From an uncultured Cytophagales bacterium (GTDB taxonomy: Bacteria > Bacteroidota > Bacteroidia > Cytophagales > UBA9547): a DNA stretch of 37,423 nt. Location of the stretch: positions 1 through 37,423 of the forward strand of contig CAMFLX010000031.1 of the NCBI GenBank assembly GCA_945957555.1. Reading direction: 5' to 3'. Positions 28,171-37,423 of the stretch are shown one piece after another. The position numbers and the translations under genes were made by a program. Every line of letters begins with the position of its first letter. The stretch's first letter is position 1. The notes beneath the pieces are model-generated. The model had not been told where the DNA came from and did no database searches. It saw nothing but the letters and a program-made list of their open reading frames with translations.

Positions 28171-29976
28171 TTATTTTACTGCGTCTTTAAAATTACTGTT
28201 GTTCCAGAAGTTCAGAAACTCCAGATCTTCTAGAGCTTTGGCTCTTAGTTTTTCGTCTAATTGAACTGCAGATTTCAATCTAGCAACTAGTATGTCTATA
28301 TTATTTTGTCTTGCAGCGGTAACAGCACTTCCGTAGTAGGCAAGAGCATTTTTAGGATCAGCTGTAGTAGCTTCGTCAAATGCAACTTTGGCTTTCTCTA
28401 AATCTTTCTTTAATAAGTATGTCAATGCAAGATTGTATTTTACCAAAGAATTATCAGACACGCCATTCTGTAAGCTAGCTACTGCATCGTCATAAAGGCC
28501 TTTTTTGATTTTCCAAACTCCGATTACACTGTTAGCGATTTTCTTAACATCGCTATCCTTGGCTAAATCATTTGCTTTTGTAGCAGCATTCATTGAGTTT
28601 GTGTAGTCATTTTTGATCAAATAAGCAGATGCAAGGTTCGCATAAGCGATTGCACTTTCTTCTTTTTGATTTGCAAGCGTTAATTGAGCGATTGATTTGT
28701 CAGCAAAGGATTGTTTGTCTTCATCTTTGTATGATGCAATAGCCTTATCTAAGTAGATAGCTCCTAAGTTGTTATAAGCCTGCCATTTGTCTGCATCAAC
28801 AGAAGCAGCTTTGTAGATAGCTTCTTTTTCGTCAGCTATTGGAGTAAGTGTAGCACTGTACAAGAGTTCTTCGCCTGTAAGTGTATCTTTCTTCACTTTG
28901 CCTTCAGAGATTTGTTTGCCCAATACCGAGATTAAAGCATCTGGCTTCTTATATTTTACAGTTAAGATTTCAGTTTTAGCTGTCCTTAATTTTGGGTAAA
29001 TTTCTTTTACTAAGTGTTTGTACGAATTTGTAGTTTGGAGCAGTTTTTCTTTTTGTTCAAAGTCGCCAGCAGGTGCGTTCACAATGTCAAGAATTTCAGT
29101 CTTTTGCTCTGGAGTTAACTTAGTATCTGCATTTACCAAATCTTTGAATGCAACCCAATCCTTAACTTGTGCCTTAAGTACAAATTGGATTGAATCCATA
29201 GTTCCTTTGTTGTACTTAAACTTAGCCATGTTTTCTTTGTAGAACTTCTCAATAACCTTCGCTCTGTCGTCAGACAGGTAAGTATTTATGGTTTCTGTAC
29301 CTTCAGGAGAGTGAGAACCTGTAATGGTAACAACTCTTGTTACGTTTTTCTTAGCAATAAATGCCTCGAAAAATTTGCCGTTTTCACCTTTAATTTCACT
29401 TTTTCTAAGAGTAGACTTTCCTTTTTCAAAGAAGAAGCCAACGTTAGTTGGTTCAAGTTCTTCCTTATTATTATAACCATGGTCTGCATACAATGAGAAG
29501 TAGTTGTTTTGAACTAATCTCGATGTAGTGATGATCCCTTTAGCTATCGGAAGCTCCTCAGTAGACTTGCTCTTGGACTTGGAAATATTGGAAGCAGTTC
29601 CAACTACTTTAAGTTCACCTCTTTTGAGGTTCTCATTGAATCCGAAAGCTATATTTTTAGAAAGTTTTGGCTGTTCTTTCTTAGCATTTGGGAAGTCGGG
29701 ATTTTGATTGAATTCTATTGTTCCTAAGTCAACAGAATTATCACCAGAGACATATCTCGATTTAACCGAGTATATCTTGTTTTTTTTCAGCATTTTAACA
29801 GGGAGTTGCGCTGAAATAGTTGCTTTTACAGAGTCACCGTGAAGTTCTAGAGGGGAAGGACTGACAGTAAGTTGTTGGTCTTTAGCCATCTTCACCATTT
29901 GTTTTAGAGTGCAACCTCCTAAGACCACAGCTCCAGATACGGCTAAAAAATAGAAAGAGTTTTTGTTAAAAATCAT
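28171..29976 (-). CDS. Outer-envelope lipoprotein with OmpA-like and TPR domains
   Basis: The 601-residue protein has a lipobox (LGGC, Cys22) followed by a beta-rich region (about 35-165). An OmpA-like segment covers about 185-265, with GFFFEKGKSTLRKSE and then SHSPEGTETINTYLSDDRAKVIE. The Asp of the peptidoglycan motif is replaced within SHSPEG, while the Arg is kept. TPR units follow at about 395-590 (WQAYNNLGAIYLDKAIA, AIAYANLASAYLIKNDY, ALAYYGSAVTAARQNN). The combination suggests an envelope scaffold; the partner is unknown. A TATATTTG element lies upstream on the minus strand. Confidence 0.82.
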   Translation of the reverse strand: MIFNKNSFYFLAVSGAVVLGGCTLKQMVKMAKDQQLTVSPSPLELHGDSVKATISAQLPVKMLKKNKIYSVKSRYVSGDNSVDLGTIEFNQNPDFPNAKKEQPKLSKNIAFGFNENLKRGELKVVGTASNISKSKSKSTEELPIAKGIITTSRLVQNNYFSLYADHGYNNKEELEPTNVGFFFEKGKSTLRKSEIKGENGKFFEAFIAKKNVTRVVTITGSHSPEGTETINTYLSDDRAKVIEKFYKENMAKFKYNKGTMDSIQFVLKAQVKDWVAFKDLVNADTKLTPEQKTEILDIVNAPAGDFEQKEKLLQTTNSYKHLVKEIYPKLRTAKTEILTVKYKKPDALISVLGKQISEGKVKKDTLTGEELLYSATLTPIADEKEAIYKAASVDADKWQAYNNLGAIYLDKAIASYKDEDKQSFADKSIAQLTLANQKEESAIAYANLASAYLIKNDYTNSMNAATKANDLAKDSDVKKIANSVIGVWKIKKGLYDDAVASLQNGVSDNSLVKYNLALTYLLKKDLEKAKVAFDEATTADPKNALAYYGSAVTAARQNNIDILVARLKSAVQLDEKLRAKALEDLEFLNFWNNSNFKDAVK

Positions 29977-30378: not shown

Positions 30379-31500
30379 ATGAACAAATATAAAATCTTAT
30401 TTTTTTTAGCGTGTGGCTTACACGCTTCTTTTTGCCAAATTGAGGTTTGGGGAGGAGCAGGGTTAGACGCAGGCATTCCTATTGCTAGCTCTTATCAAGG
30501 AAACAAGTCTATTTTAAAACCTCGATTGAATTATCTATTCAATGAAAATTTGTATTTACAATTAAGGTTTTTTAGAAGAATAGGGATCGAGGCTTATGTG
30601 ACTCAAAATACCCAATCATACAAATATTTGGATAAAACCTTTTATCACACTACAGGTGATAAGTATGATGCTGTTATTAAATCAAAAAATAATTTCACGA
30701 GCTATGGTTTGAACCTTATTTATAGACAACCTTTAGTGGGGAGTTATGCTGGTATTTATGTTTCTGCTGGCTATAGGATTAACAATGTAGGCAACTCTAC
30801 AGTTTCTCAAACCCAAACTTTTAAGTTAAATAGCCAAGAGTTCGAATTTGTATCGAGGAGCTATGGGTCAGGAGGAGCTTTGTTGTTTGAGGGTGGTTGC
30901 CAAGTGGTGACAGATGACGAAAAGAATATGTTTACAGTTGGACTACAGTACCATAATGGTTTATCTAAACTATATGACGGCGATTTGACTACCAGACAGA
31001 ACGGGACAGTATTATATTCAGATAGGGTTAGTTCTGCATTGAGTTATTTTGGACTTACAGTTAAATACCATTATAGATTATTTGGTTATGATAAGTCAGA
31101 AAAGATTCCTGTGGAAGAACCAGTTGGAGACATTAATAAGCATTCTGAGTATGTACATCCTGCACAAAGAAAAGTAGAGCTTAAGGATAAAATTGAAGTT
31201 AAGAATAAGAAGATTACTATAGCTATATACGACCCTTATCGTGAGGATAATGATAGAGTATCTATTAGTATCAACGGGAAATTTGCACTTGAAAACTATA
31301 CTGTTACCAATAAGCAATATCAGTTCGATGTGGAATTGTTTCCTGGAGTAAACACCTTAATATTTCAGGCTGAAAACCTGGGGGATATTCCCCCAAATAC
31401 TGCGACCATTTTTGTGATTGAAAATGGTAAAAAGAAGAAGTTTGATATGACAGCCAATTTAAATACGAGTCAATCCTTAGAAATTGATTATAAACCGTAG
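30379..31500 (+). CDS. Envelope protein with barrel-like N-terminus and a repeat C-terminal domain
   Basis: The 373-residue protein has a signal peptide (1-19, cleaved near SFC). A beta-barrel-like region follows (about 20-240, for example YAGIYVSAGYRINNV and MFTVGLQYHNG), then a linker with charged residues. The C-terminal domain (277-373) contains ITIAIYDPYREDNDRVSI, SINGK and VNTLIFQAENLGDIPPNTAT. This last domain recurs in the next gene (residues 180-271 there). No named family is recognised. The next start lies four bases after this stop codon, so the two are in one operon. Function is unknown; outer-membrane location is inferred. Confidence 0.75.
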   Translation: MNKYKILFFLACGLHASFCQIEVWGGAGLDAGIPIASSYQGNKSILKPRLNYLFNENLYLQLRFFRRIGIEAYVTQNTQSYKYLDKTFYHTTGDKYDAVIKSKNNFTSYGLNLIYRQPLVGSYAGIYVSAGYRINNVGNSTVSQTQTFKLNSQEFEFVSRSYGSGGALLFEGGCQVVTDDEKNMFTVGLQYHNGLSKLYDGDLTTRQNGTVLYSDRVSSALSYFGLTVKYHYRLFGYDKSEKIPVEEPVGDINKHSEYVHPAQRKVELKDKIEVKNKKITIAIYDPYREDNDRVSISINGKFALENYTVTNKQYQFDVELFPGVNTLIFQAENLGDIPPNTATIFVIENGKKKKFDMTANLNTSQSLEIDYKP

Positions 31501-31504
31501 TTTT

Positions 31505-32320
31505 ATGAAGAAGATTGTAACATTAGTATTGTTTGTATTTATACTTTACAGTTCTTGCCAAAGTAAGAAAGTAAAGATTGATTTTCAACAAACGGAGTGT
31601 AAAAATTTGGTCTTAAAGAACGCTGTATATTCACTTGAAAAGCCTCCATGTGATAACGGCAAAAAACAATCTTATTTGCAAAATACCATAAGAATTAAGG
31701 TAGATCACAACAATAAGCAACCATGTTTGGAGTTTTTCAAGATCAAGGCTGCTTTTTTAAGAAGTGATGGGACGGAAATTTCGGGAGTTTCTTACAAGAG
31801 CGATTATAAATATACAGATCCTGAGGTTACTCTGACGAGTTCTTATATTGAAATAGCATTTAAGTATACACTTGCGACAACAGATGATGCGGATAATTTG
31901 TCAACTATTAAAATAGATCTGAGTTTGGAAAACGAGCTCAAGGATGTATCTAAGTTTTTTACTTTGACGGTTCCTTTGAGCTGTGTTACAAGTTCTTCTA
32001 ATGGTAGTTATCAGGTGGTTCAAGATGTACATGTTAATAGTAGTACTGTTACTTTGGGCTTTAGAGATTATTCTAGTATTGATGGGGATATTATTTCCGT
32101 TTATTTAAATGGTAATGTAGTTGTAAGTAATTTGACCCTTACTGGATCTTTTCAGAATTTTACTGTAACGGTTAATTCGGGAAGTAACCAGTTGGTGGTG
32201 ATTGCAGAAAATGAAGGTAGCAGTAGTCCGAATACTTGTGAAGTAAAGGTAAACAATAGTAGTGGGATTGATTTAACCCCAGGACTGAATACTGGTCAAG
32301 GGATCAATATTATTTTTTGA
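31505..32320 (+). CDS. Lipoprotein sharing the C-terminal domain of its neighbour
   Basis: The 271-residue protein is a lipoprotein (YSSC, Cys18). The middle part (about 25-175) has beta-rich segments and several cysteines (for example Cys32, Cys48 and Cys74) but no recognised family. The C-terminal 92 residues align with the end of the preceding protein: STVTLGFRDYSSIDGDIISV, then NQLVVIAENEGSSSPNT, then GLNTGQGINI. The ATG at 31505 is chosen because it sits four bases after the upstream stop codon and gives a lipobox; the TTG at 31484 would overlap that gene. Partner of the barrel-like protein is a reasonable guess. Confidence 0.78.
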   Translation: MKKIVTLVLFVFILYSSCQSKKVKIDFQQTECKNLVLKNAVYSLEKPPCDNGKKQSYLQNTIRIKVDHNNKQPCLEFFKIKAAFLRSDGTEISGVSYKSDYKYTDPEVTLTSSYIEIAFKYTLATTDDADNLSTIKIDLSLENELKDVSKFFTLTVPLSCVTSSSNGSYQVVQDVHVNSSTVTLGFRDYSSIDGDIISVYLNGNVVVSNLTLTGSFQNFTVTVNSGSNQLVVIAENEGSSSPNTCEVKVNNSSGIDLTPGLNTGQGINIIF

Positions 32321-33996: not shown

Positions 33997-34134
33997 ATTT
34001 GTGGTTGGCGGTCCCGAAATATTGGTATTAGATTTTTTAAATGACCATATAATTGTCTGTAAAGAAACCTAAACGCATATTTTTCGTAATTGCTATGGAA
34101 TATAACTGGCTAAATACAGTTGTTTTATTTAAAA
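33997..34134. other. 138-base gap before the giant gene
   Basis: AT-rich, with no recognised motif or gene. It should hold the promoter of the next gene. Confidence 0.35.
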
Positions 34135-37100
34135 ATGAAGAAATTATACCTTCTTGTTATATTTTGTGTTGTTTCCTTGGCTACCAGGGCTCAGATTACG
34201 ATTACTTCGCAGACCACCGCGGAAAGTTGTAAAGGTGCCAAGGATGGTAAAGCAAAGGTGTTTTTAAAGTTCCCGGCCGGTTATTCTAAATTTGTTTATT
34301 ATAGACTTAATCCTCTTGCGGTTCCGGTTTTAGATACGGTCACGCATTACACTACATTAACAGCTACATCTGATAGTATAGAATTCCTTAACTTGCCAGG
34401 GGCAATTTCTTCAATTACTGTATTCCCTACGGGACCTACTATGAATGCTGAAGCAACTGGTGTAAATGTTGGAAGTGGCTATGATGTTCAAGAACCCCAA
34501 GTTGGCGTGGGCGCCTTGAATCAAAATATTACAGTATGCGAAGGTGCTCAACTAAAATTGTTTTCCCAAAGTGAATCAGGTGCGGGCTATTCATGGATTG
34601 GTCCTAATTCGTTTATCTCCGCCGTTCAGAATCCTGTGATTAATAATGCACAAGCTATTAATGCAGGTACTTATAAAGTTGTTGCCAGTCATTTAGGGAA
34701 TCAGAGTAAAACTTGTTACAGTGATACAGTATCGATCACACCTACGGTTATAGATGTGCCCAATCCTTCATTTACAATACCCGTTGGTATTTGTCAAAAC
34801 GATCCTTTGAGTTTGGTAGCAGATGCACCCACTTCGGGAGTTGATAGTTATGATTGGAAAATGCCAAATGGTTCTCCTGCATTTAAAAACAATAATCAAG
34901 GACCATTTAACGTAAATTATAATTCTTCTACAGGTGCAAGTCCAAATACTATAACATTAACGGTTACCAAAAGTGGTTGTAAGGACAGTGTGAAGCATGA
35001 TTTGCAAGTGAGGCCAAAGCCTTCAGCATCTCTTTCTGCAATACAAAACAAAATTTGTTCGGGTACCAATGCACAATTGACAATAACATTTGTAGGAACT
35101 GCTCCTTGGGATTATTCTTATTCTGATGGTACCACTACATTTTCGGGTACAGCCAATACTTCTCCCCTGAATTTAAGTGTTGTTGTTAATAGTAACACCA
35201 CTTATACATTGACTTCAGTTTCCTCGTTTGCTTGTACAGGAACCGTTACGGGAAGTCCGGTAACTATCACAGTAGATCCTTCTCCAACTGCAACCCTTGA
35301 TCCTTTACCTGCTACTATATGTGAGAATGGGACTCCAATAACACTGACGGGTTCCCCAATTTCTCCTGGCACAGGAGTGTTTTCTGGCTCGGGTGTTTCT
35401 GGCTCTACGTTTAATCCTGCAAATGCAGGTGGGGCAGGTGTAAAGACCATTACTTATAAATATACGGACTTGAATGGCTGTTTTGGTACAGATAGTAAAA
35501 CTATAACAGTACAAGCTAAACCCGTAATAACAGTAACTTCAGTTCCTAATCAGTGTAAAAATGGAGCCCCTGTTACTTTAAATGCAACTCCGGCTGGAGG
35601 TACATTTTCGGGGTTGGGAGTTTCAGGAAATACATTCAATCCTGCTACTGTGGGGCTTCCAAGTTCTGTTAAAATATACTATACAGTACTTGGTGCCAAT
35701 GGTTGCACTAACAAAGATAGTAGTGTTACGATTGGACTAATTACACCTCCCAATGCTGGTATTACAGCATTTAAGACGTCAATTTGTGCGGGGCAAAGTA
35801 CTACTTTGCTTATTGGTTTTAATGGTACTAAGCCCTGGAATTATACCTATAATAACGGTGTATCCAATATTTCTGCCACAACAAATTCTACGACTGTAAG
35901 TATTCCAATAAGTCCAGCATCTACAACGACCTACTCAATGGTTTCTGTTTCTGATGCGAACTGTCCCTCAGGAACTTTATCACCTTCAAGTGTAAAGGTA
36001 ACAGTTAACCCCCTTCCTGTCATCAATTTCACTTCTCCTGGAGGCCCTTTTTGTGAAACAGCAAGTCCAGTCACTTTAGTGGCGACACCTGCGGGAGGTA
36101 CCTTTAGTACTACGCCAGCGGCGGCGATTACGGGTACTCAATTTGATCCCACAAAAGCAGGTTTTGCTGCGCCTTCGGTTACGAGGACCATTACGTATTC
36201 TTATACTGACCCATCAACAACTTGTGCGAATACGGCAACTCAAAATGTGACGATTATGCCGCAGCCTACAGCTACCTTTACGGCATTGCCAAGTCCTGTG
36301 TGTCCGAATACGAACGTAGCTGTGACTTATACGGGTAATGGGAGTGCTTCGGCAGTGTACAATTGGAATTTTGACAGCCCTAGTACTACAACGGGCTCAG
36401 GCAAGGGGCCTTATACCTTGCAGTGGAATACTGGAGGGACTAAAAATGTTACCTTAACAGTAACCGATTACTCATGTACCACTGCATTGATCACCAATTC
36501 TGTAGTGGTGAAACCTGCGGCTACGGCTACGATTTCAGGAACGCAAGGGATCTGTACAGGTAATAATGCTCCTTTGACTTTTAACTTTACAGGTACAGGA
36601 CCTTGGAACTTTACCTATACGGATGGTACCACCAATGTTTCCACAAGCACTAATGTGAGTCCTTTTACGGTGAATGTAAGCCCCGCAAGTACAAAGACCT
36701 ACAGCTTGGTGAGTGTTACCGATGTAGGTGCTTGCCCAGGAACGGTTTCTGGCAGTGCTGTAGTCACAGTGGTTACGAAACCTAGTAGTAATTTTACGCT
36801 TGGGTCGAGCGTTTGTCAAGGAACGAGCACACCGATCTTAGCAAGCGTAAATTCCCCAACGGCCACTTATACTTGGAACTTTGGCGGTGGTACACCTGCG
36901 GTGGTGGCGGGAGCAGGTACACATAATATTTCATGGGCAAGTTCGGGTTCAAAACAAGTTTCTTTGGTGATCAATGAGTCTTCTGGTTGTATTTCTGATA
37001 CCACGAGGAAGACCATTACGGTGAATCCTTTACCTACTGCAACGATCAGTAATGATACTACAGTCTGCCAAGGCAATTCTGGTAAAGTGAAAATTACCTT

Positions 37101-37423
37101 TACTGGCACTGCACCTTTTACGGCCCAACTCAAGGATCAAAACAATACGATTTATAATGTAAACTCTCCAACTAATGTCATTTACTTCCCTGTCACTGTG
37201 GCTACGACTTCTACTTTCACGGTAGTGGCTAATTCGGTAAAGGATGCAAATAATTGTACTGGTACAGGAAGTGGTACGGTGGTGGTGACTTTACAACCCT
37301 TGCCAACGGCTACAATTTCGAGTAATTCGCAGATTTGTGCAGGTGGATCTAGTTCTATTAAGATTGATTTTACGGGTACACCGCCATTTGATTATACCTA
37401 CCAACTCAGTACTGGAGGCACAG
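34135..37423 (+). CDS. Giant secreted Ig/PKD-like repeat protein (3' partial)
   Basis: The frame is open from the ATG at 34135 to the window end, 1,096 codons with no stop. It starts with a signal peptide (about 1-20, cleaved near TRAQ). A unique N-terminal part is followed by repeated beta domains of about 75-90 residues in three kinds. Kind A has FxGTxPW(D/N)(F/Y)xY (about 35025, 35755, 36529, 37039 and 37309). Kind B has GGTFSGxGVSG then FNPAT (about 35284, 35524 and 36019). Kind C is PKD-like, with YxWxF and GPY (about 34765, 36265 and 36784). Each has paired Cys. Such proteins in Bacteroidota are usually T9SS-secreted surface or adhesion proteins with a C-terminal sorting domain, which would lie outside the window. 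Confidence 0.88.
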   Translation, partial: MKKLYLLVIFCVVSLATRAQITITSQTTAESCKGAKDGKAKVFLKFPAGYSKFVYYRLNPLAVPVLDTVTHYTTLTATSDSIEFLNLPGAISSITVFPTGPTMNAEATGVNVGSGYDVQEPQVGVGALNQNITVCEGAQLKLFSQSESGAGYSWIGPNSFISAVQNPVINNAQAINAGTYKVVASHLGNQSKTCYSDTVSITPTVIDVPNPSFTIPVGICQNDPLSLVADAPTSGVDSYDWKMPNGSPAFKNNNQGPFNVNYNSSTGASPNTITLTVTKSGCKDSVKHDLQVRPKPSASLSAIQNKICSGTNAQLTITFVGTAPWDYSYSDGTTTFSGTANTSPLNLSVVVNSNTTYTLTSVSSFACTGTVTGSPVTITVDPSPTATLDPLPATICENGTPITLTGSPISPGTGVFSGSGVSGSTFNPANAGGAGVKTITYKYTDLNGCFGTDSKTITVQAKPVITVTSVPNQCKNGAPVTLNATPAGGTFSGLGVSGNTFNPATVGLPSSVKIYYTVLGANGCTNKDSSVTIGLITPPNAGITAFKTSICAGQSTTLLIGFNGTKPWNYTYNNGVSNISATTNSTTVSIPISPASTTTYSMVSVSDANCPSGTLSPSSVKVTVNPLPVINFTSPGGPFCETASPVTLVATPAGGTFSTTPAAAITGTQFDPTKAGFAAPSVTRTITYSYTDPSTTCANTATQNVTIMPQPTATFTALPSPVCPNTNVAVTYTGNGSASAVYNWNFDSPSTTTGSGKGPYTLQWNTGGTKNVTLTVTDYSCTTALITNSVVVKPAATATISGTQGICTGNNAPLTFNFTGTGPWNFTYTDGTTNVSTSTNVSPFTVNVSPASTKTYSLVSVTDVGACPGTVSGSAVVTVVTKPSSNFTLGSSVCQGTSTPILASVNSPTATYTWNFGGGTPAVVAGAGTHNISWASSGSKQVSLVINESSGCISDTTRKTITVNPLPTATISNDTTVCQGNSGKVKITFTGTAPFTAQLKDQNNTIYNVNSPTNVIYFPVTVATTSTFTVVANSVKDANNCTGTGSGTVVVTLQPLPTATISSNSQICAGGSSSIKIDFTGTPPFDYTYQLSTGGT

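Follow-up and report, generated by a model that had tools for sequence, protein, structure and literature searches.

T9SS C-terminal domains are divided into three classes, types A, B and C, and the type A domain is Ig-like, as set out in the part of PMC10202324 available to us. Types A and B are also treated in the available parts of PMC12618676 and PMC10994853. The domain analyzed here, which ends two adjacent envelope proteins of an uncultured Cytophagales bacterium and is called the tail domain below, is not described in those parts of the three papers. It was likewise absent from the titles and abstract openings of the literature searched, in which subscription journals are thinly covered. 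Like the T9SS domains of types A (TIGR04183), B (TIGR04131) and C (NF033708, ChiA), the tail domain is C-terminal, similar in size and attached to varied exported proteins of Bacteroidota. Unlike them, it is also found on probable barrels, lipoproteins and phage-type tail proteins. The beta-sandwich is shared with ChitinaseA_N (PF08329) and with other Ig-like or cadherin-like sandwiches, but the tail domain differs from ChitinaseA_N in that it is not N-terminal and belongs to no chitinase. An acidic loop is shared with the calcium-dependent modules CBM60 and CBM36, which formed the top rows of a structural search (VIA) with Z scores only at the level seen without a clear match. In phrog_12858, a PHROGs family of unknown function, the matched stretches listed lie at residues 387–459 of 514, and the remainder of the protein is of another kind than the carriers of the tail domain.

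We analyzed a window of 37,423 nucleotides (contig CAMFLX010000031.1 of assembly GCA_945957555.1, forward strand). The two tail-bearing genes and their parts are listed below by position in the window.

30379–31500, + strand: exported protein of 373 amino acids (open reading frame), with a signal peptide recognized by eye, a probable barrel at about residues 20–240, a linker and the C-terminal tail
31165–31497, + strand: tail domain of the barrel-like protein, 111 residues modeled with nine strands (AlphaFold2, pLDDT 94.3, pTM 0.85), supported by homology
31231–31254, + strand: acidic loop D-x4-D-x-D of the barrel tail, model residues 23–30, from conservation among 79 sequences
31372–31401, + strand: ENLGDIPPNT stretch of the barrel tail, model residues 70–79, from the same conservation analysis
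31505–32320, + strand: lipoprotein of 271 amino acids (open reading frame from an ATG seven codons past the listed TTG), with lipobox Cys18 recognized by eye, an Ig-like front domain with conserved cysteines and the C-terminal tail
32003–32317, + strand: tail domain of the lipoprotein, with the strand order of the barrel tail and a score above the PF08329 gathering score
32066–32089, + strand: acidic loop of the lipoprotein tail, D188 to D195; D188, D193 and D195 are invariant in the 32 rows of alignment A4
32207–32236, + strand: ENEGSSSPNT stretch of the lipoprotein tail, residues 235–244; G238 and T244 are invariant in the 32 rows of A4

The stop codon of the barrel gene occupies 31498–31500 and the ATG of the lipoprotein gene begins at 31505, which confirms the four-base spacing counted in an earlier reading made from the letters of the window (the sequence-only reading). 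The front part of the first protein is a probable outer-membrane beta-barrel. Of the 12 barrel regions aligned in A6, 4 matched PF13505 (OMP_b-brl; best E 3.4e-7) and that of the window's protein did not; a profile search with the front part matched no solved barrel. In the lipoprotein, Cys18, 32, 49 and 74 were invariant in alignment A5 (12 rows, window included). Promoter-like sites numbered 13, compared with 10.3 (sd 3.1) in shuffles. Upstream of the pair, the other strand encodes a lipoprotein in which an OmpA-like part and repeats of TPR type were recognized by eye (28171–29976). Downstream, a large exported protein runs past the window end (34120–37423); by eye it contains many PKD-like repeats, and it is perhaps a T9SS cargo.

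The sequence-only reading had claimed that these adjacent envelope proteins share a C-terminal domain marked by one residue pattern. A single BLASTP comparison aligned residues 272–369 of the barrel-like protein with 175–269 of the lipoprotein at 32% identity over 98 columns (E 4e-11), and the two C-terminal ends scored 131 when aligned, compared with an average of 27.9 (sd 5.0) and a highest score of 47 among 500 shuffles. Judged by these comparisons, the two tails are beyond doubt one homologous domain, as had been claimed; it spans about 105 residues. The pattern was present in both window tails; the wider family retains the acid turn, NG, A-x-N-x-G and PNT, and LNTxQ is not retained. A search of the organism's own genome with the barrel tail recovered the lipoprotein tail (E 1.2e-9) and one further copy, on contig C363 (E 4.5e-9). 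This third tail is the end of a barrel-like protein of 437 amino acids. That protein, the second tail-bearing barrel-like one of the genome (L003:1480–2808, − strand), falls in a different BLAST cluster and is followed by a tail-less barrel-like protein.

The barrel tail was predicted by AlphaFold2 from 79 rows to form a nine-strand beta-sandwich. A model of the whole lipoprotein (pLDDT 85.5, 32 rows) contains an Ig-like front domain followed by tail strands ordered like those of the barrel tail. The strand order is identical in both predicted tails, and their predicted folds do not differ. Conservation was read from 79 sequences, namely the two window tails and 77 of 83 stretches kept in alignment A3, from which L075, L088, L109, L114, L115 and L122 were excluded by hand as truncated or divergent. 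Near-invariant model residues were D23, D28, D30, S33, N37, A69, G73, P77, N78 and T79. The three aspartates of the acidic loop were found in 77 (D23), 78 (D28) and 78 (D30) of the 79 sequences, and in the ENLGDIPPNT stretch the counts were 78 for G73, 76 for P77, 75 for N78 and 78 for T79. Loops 23–30 and 70–77 were among the most conserved parts in the 79 sequences, together with strand 3 and the NG turn (residues 37–38), which was the most conserved single element. An arginine at model residue 2, just ahead of the domain, was present in 64 of 74. Loop 23–30 follows strand 2 and loop 70–77 follows strand 6, and the strand order of the model would place both at one end of the sandwich. By the same order the NG turn would lie at the opposite end, where it may be structural. 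With its most conserved element predicted at the end opposite the loops, conservation would not be restricted to one face.

We compared the tails with family libraries. At E 0.01 or less, Pfam matches among the 79 tails were Cadherin-like (2) and ChitinaseA_N, GbpA_D3 and DUF7320 (1 each), and NCBIfam gave five scattered families with 1 or 2 members each. At E 0.1, the 14 members of alignment A1 matched Cadherin-like (3), RhaB_D2 (3) and ChitinaseA_N (2) in Pfam. No family of either library was matched by more than 2 of the 79, and the profile search was thus not confined to one known Ig-like family. These results support the view that the tail would be a domain without a name in the libraries searched (Pfam and NCBIfam). 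The window's lipoprotein tail scored 23.9 bits for ChitinaseA_N, above the gathering cut-off of 21.2, which a curator might read as an assignment. We rejected this assignment, as only 1 of the 79 members matched PF08329 at E 0.01 or less even though the lipoprotein tail passes the cut-off. The suggestion of a previously unnamed envelope module is supported as far as Pfam and NCBIfam reach, with the caveat that the window's lipoprotein tail by itself passes the cut-off of one Ig-like family.

In the second structural comparison (VIA), the barrel tail matched CBM60 (2xfd; Z 7.1, rmsd 2.8, 83 aligned), a best Z of 7 to 8 being usual without a clear match, and 2xhh (Z 6.7, rmsd 3.1, 87 aligned), which is also within the range usual without a clear match. 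The CBM60 model of Pfam (PF16841) matched none of the 79 tails at E 0.01 or less, and no CBM60 was found in 61 genomes of the phylum, in a search that matched no positive control. Neither a T9SS type A signal nor CBM35 was among the 50 VIA matches listed for the tail, which excludes neither. Using Foldseek, the best match of the tail in the PDB had E 0.041, with none at 0.001 or less (CBM35 4qb1, E 0.26). In BFVD the best was 0.0014, again with none at 0.001 or less, and a viral protein named caspase gave 0.0076 at probability 1.00. Solved structures were also searched by sequence, where a single tail reached a best E of 0.42 and the profile a best E of 0.0033, to Xyn30D. The Xyn30D match, a weak lead to a carbohydrate-binding module, was not relied on. 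The whole lipoprotein gave 11 PDB matches at E 0.001 or less, the best of which was a multi-Ig adhesin (E 9.7e-6, TM 0.24), and its front domain had a best VIA Z of 7.5; these whole-lipoprotein matches would say only 'Ig-like'. Weak matching to generic sandwich families, together with the turn and core positions among the conserved residues (NG and two tryptophan positions), would suit a tail that is a structural cap or spacer only, that is, an ordinary Ig-like domain with no ligand of its own. Yet the presence of D23, D28, D30, G73, P77, N78 and T79 in 75–78 of the 79 sequences and the fixed terminal position seem to exceed what a spacer needs, and we consider the spacer quite unlikely.

The tail domain is widespread. 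With the barrel tail alone as query, 14 of 59 genomes matched, own included, which corresponds to 13 of 58 relatives. With a 14-row profile, at least 56 of 395 genomes of the phylum, own included, carried the tail; at most 12 candidates were scored per genome, and the counts are lower bounds. All 56 belong to the window's own class, and none was found outside it among the candidates scored in the 395 genomes. When a collection holding a single genome for each species was scanned with two peptide patterns, a method limited to tail copies in their vicinity, 68 loci were obtained, of which 66 are titled Bacteroidota. Translation of 125 loci and a profile search yielded 157 matching frames, of which 140 were distinct, with 133 distinct tails. 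The tail ended within 35 residues of the stop in all 133 and within 10 residues in 114, and one frame held an extra inner copy. The front parts (longer than 40 amino acids) formed 41 clusters by single-linkage BLAST at 1e-5, a procedure that may split distant relatives; 18 clusters held two or more distinct genes, and 5 of the 41 contained only frames below 200 amino acids, where L114 and L115 are cut by the locus end. Front types recognized with Pfam or by eye included barrel-like parts, L-type lectins, WD40/PD40 propellers, one CBM_4_9, helical parts and short lipid anchors. Six of ten full proteins scanned had no or only weak Pfam domains. At one locus (L094:2099–8635), five tail-ended genes follow one another, with WD40-like and other propeller-like fronts.

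In some proteins (L036, L074 and the proteins of family f26, 191–248 amino acids), the tail is the sole part of folded appearance, and the tail should thus act on its own. The f26 frames (L184–L201) have fronts that look disordered, and among the neighbors of their 18 tail genes no other protein of at least 110 amino acids occurred in more than 6 of the 18 loci. We infer that this family is perhaps of Flavobacteriaceae. The L074 protein (L074:5773–6324), on a contig of a Gemmatimonadetes MAG, is a lipoprotein made of a lipid anchor and the tail with little else. The G+C content of this locus (63.6%) and its neighbors, judged by eye, fit a Gemmatimonadetes genome, and this occurrence outside Bacteroidota may therefore be real. 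The other locus outside Bacteroidota, L104, belongs to a Thermoanaerobaculia MAG; it groups with Saprospiraceae proteins and is probably a binning error.

Distant copies were found in proteins of phage type. PHROGs was the sole library with a consistent match to the tails: phrog_12858 was matched by 53 of the 79 at E 0.01 or less (best 8.7e-9) and by 3 of six single tails. The family had no match in the organism's own genome at E 0.001, in a search that matched no positive control. Two Bacillales loci were read.

L202:1262–2860 (CP063417.1): phage-type tail protein with a distant domain copy near its end, behind a proline-rich linker
L203:2759–4366 (NZ_CP073756.1): phage-type tail protein of the same layout

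In Parageobacillus phage JGon-2020a, the domain lies at residues 414–492 of a 532-residue protein (53 bits), unannotated in the record and a tail protein by eye. On an Exiguobacterium plasmid it lies at 415–482 of a 535-residue protein annotated 'phage tail protein' (38 bits). Both copies retain the acid loop, and the PPNT loop is absent. In tblastn searches, one lipoprotein tail matched both the phage (E 1e-5) and an Anoxybacillus plasmid (E 1e-4); a barrel tail matched the phage at 4e-3, and a third tail at only 0.6. A plasmid search with the window's barrel tail gave no match at E 0.001, and none of 88 pattern-matching stretches in viral contigs was confirmed. Binding domains are common near the end of phage tail proteins.

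We compared the tails with the T9SS models. Types A (TIGR04183) and C (NF033708) each matched 0 of the 79 tails at E 0.01 or less, and hhalign of the tails with 21 type A signals of the own genome gave a probability of 1.2%; by sequence, the tail was thus rejected as a type A or C sorting domain. Type B (TIGR04131, PF13585) was absent among the Pfam and NCBIfam matches of the 79 tails, these models having no positive control, and the Pfam matches included no T9SS family, PF18962 being likewise without a positive control. The organism's own genome encodes SprA at C26:14730–21839, which is only a necessary condition for T9SS cargo. It also holds at least 150 type A signals in 6.2 Mb, a very large T9SS cargo set. 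SprA was present in 56 of 56 tail-positive genomes, and the tail was found in 0 of 92 SprA-negative ones (395 genomes, candidates scored). This co-occurrence proves little because it follows ancestry: the window's class contributes just 6 of the 92 SprA-negative genomes, and it is the only class in which a tail was found.

A T9SS C-terminal sorting signal of a new type would explain the terminal position of all 133 distinct copies, their size of about 100 residues, the beta-sandwich and the varied cargo (lectins, a CBM), and it agrees with SprA in every tail-positive genome and with the many type A signals of the own genome. It is opposed by the absent relation to types A and C, by the relatives in phage-type proteins of Bacillales and by the confounding of the SprA result by ancestry. 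The domain is also carried by probable outer-membrane barrels and by near-bare lipoproteins, some with little beyond anchor and tail, which makes a new sorting signal less likely. We regard it as improbable.

The two-gene unit itself is conserved. All 16 distinct tail-bearing lipoproteins of the window type are encoded immediately after a tail-bearing barrel and in the same orientation. When the window was compared with 11 other loci, all 12 had only the barrel and the lipoprotein in common, and no other protein of at least 110 amino acids occurred in more than 3 of the 12, some contigs being short. A search of 148 genomes of the order found the lipoprotein front domain in 8, the own genome among them, with the tail attached in all 8. 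The analysis extends the sequence-only reading: the tail is a C-terminal module of wide occurrence, carried by many unrelated proteins, and the pair is a conserved unit. In a tree of tails, the 12 barrel tails formed one group (support 0.95) with L084 as the single intruder, and the 12 lipoprotein tails formed another with weak support (0.44). Barrel and lipoprotein tails were 31.5% identical within a genome and 30.9% between genomes. The grouping and the equal identities indicate that the barrel and lipoprotein tails most likely diverged earlier than these lineages did and have stayed separate ever since.

Two tails within one conserved unit, the five consecutive tail genes of L094 and tandem tails elsewhere could also reflect a dimerization or assembly domain, in which binding of tail to tail joins the barrel to the lipoprotein. 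However, just one tail gene is present in 56 of the 68 pattern-scan loci, many of which lie on short contigs, and tails are no closer within a genome than between genomes, a result that neither requires nor excludes pairing. We judge assembly through the tails to be rather unlikely.

A domain that follows the last strand of a barrel behind a linker is located in the periplasm. An adjacent pair of acids within five residues behind the lipid cysteine was absent, by eye, in 12 of 12 lipoproteins of A4. Such adjacent acids mark surface lipoproteins in Capnocytophaga, according to the available part of PMC5080379. From the barrel topology and the absent acid pair, both tails of the pair would most likely face the periplasm. 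In two further lipoproteins with the tail, L016 and L036, acidic stretches follow the cysteine, and a periplasmic orientation is thus not general for the tail domain.

The reading we favor, for which the balance of evidence is about even, is that the nine-strand C-terminal cap is a ligand-binding or docking head, and that the periplasmic tails of the pair are held to a common ligand or to each other. It builds on the homology of the tails, the predicted fold, the terminal copies behind 41 front clusters, the conserved loops, the conserved pair and the copies in phage tail proteins, to which the weak carbohydrate-binding leads (Xyn30D and CBM60) may be added. The NG turn predicted at the opposite end, the weak structural matches, the phage copies without a PPNT loop and the slight proline enrichment of the linker (0.074 vs. 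0.049, n = 37, p = 0.02) count against it. Docking, one of the roles suggested by the sequence-only reading, is plausible. According to the binding-head reading, the domain would cap the C-terminus of many exported envelope proteins, and the acidic loop D-x4-D-G-D and the loop A-x-N-x-G-x2-P-P-N-T would form its binding face. A calcium ion may perhaps sit within this face, although such a site is a guess. The barrel and its partner lipoprotein would then be tethered either to each other or to one ligand, which may be a glycan of the cell wall or a protein common to both.

A broader reading, which is speculative and rather unlikely, is that the tail is a general attachment or sorting module of Bacteroidota, comparable in function to the T9SS domains and unrelated in sequence to types A and C. 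It would tether exported proteins of dozens of kinds, among them barrels and lipoproteins, to a single envelope ligand, and phage tail proteins would have acquired or supplied its relatives.

In Bacteroidota, C-terminal domains address the cargo of the T9SS, and the tail is a further widespread C-terminal domain. As it occurs on barrel-like proteins, lipoproteins and soluble proteins, it would help to interpret many 'hypothetical' envelope proteins together, and one binding assay could account for all carriers of the tail.
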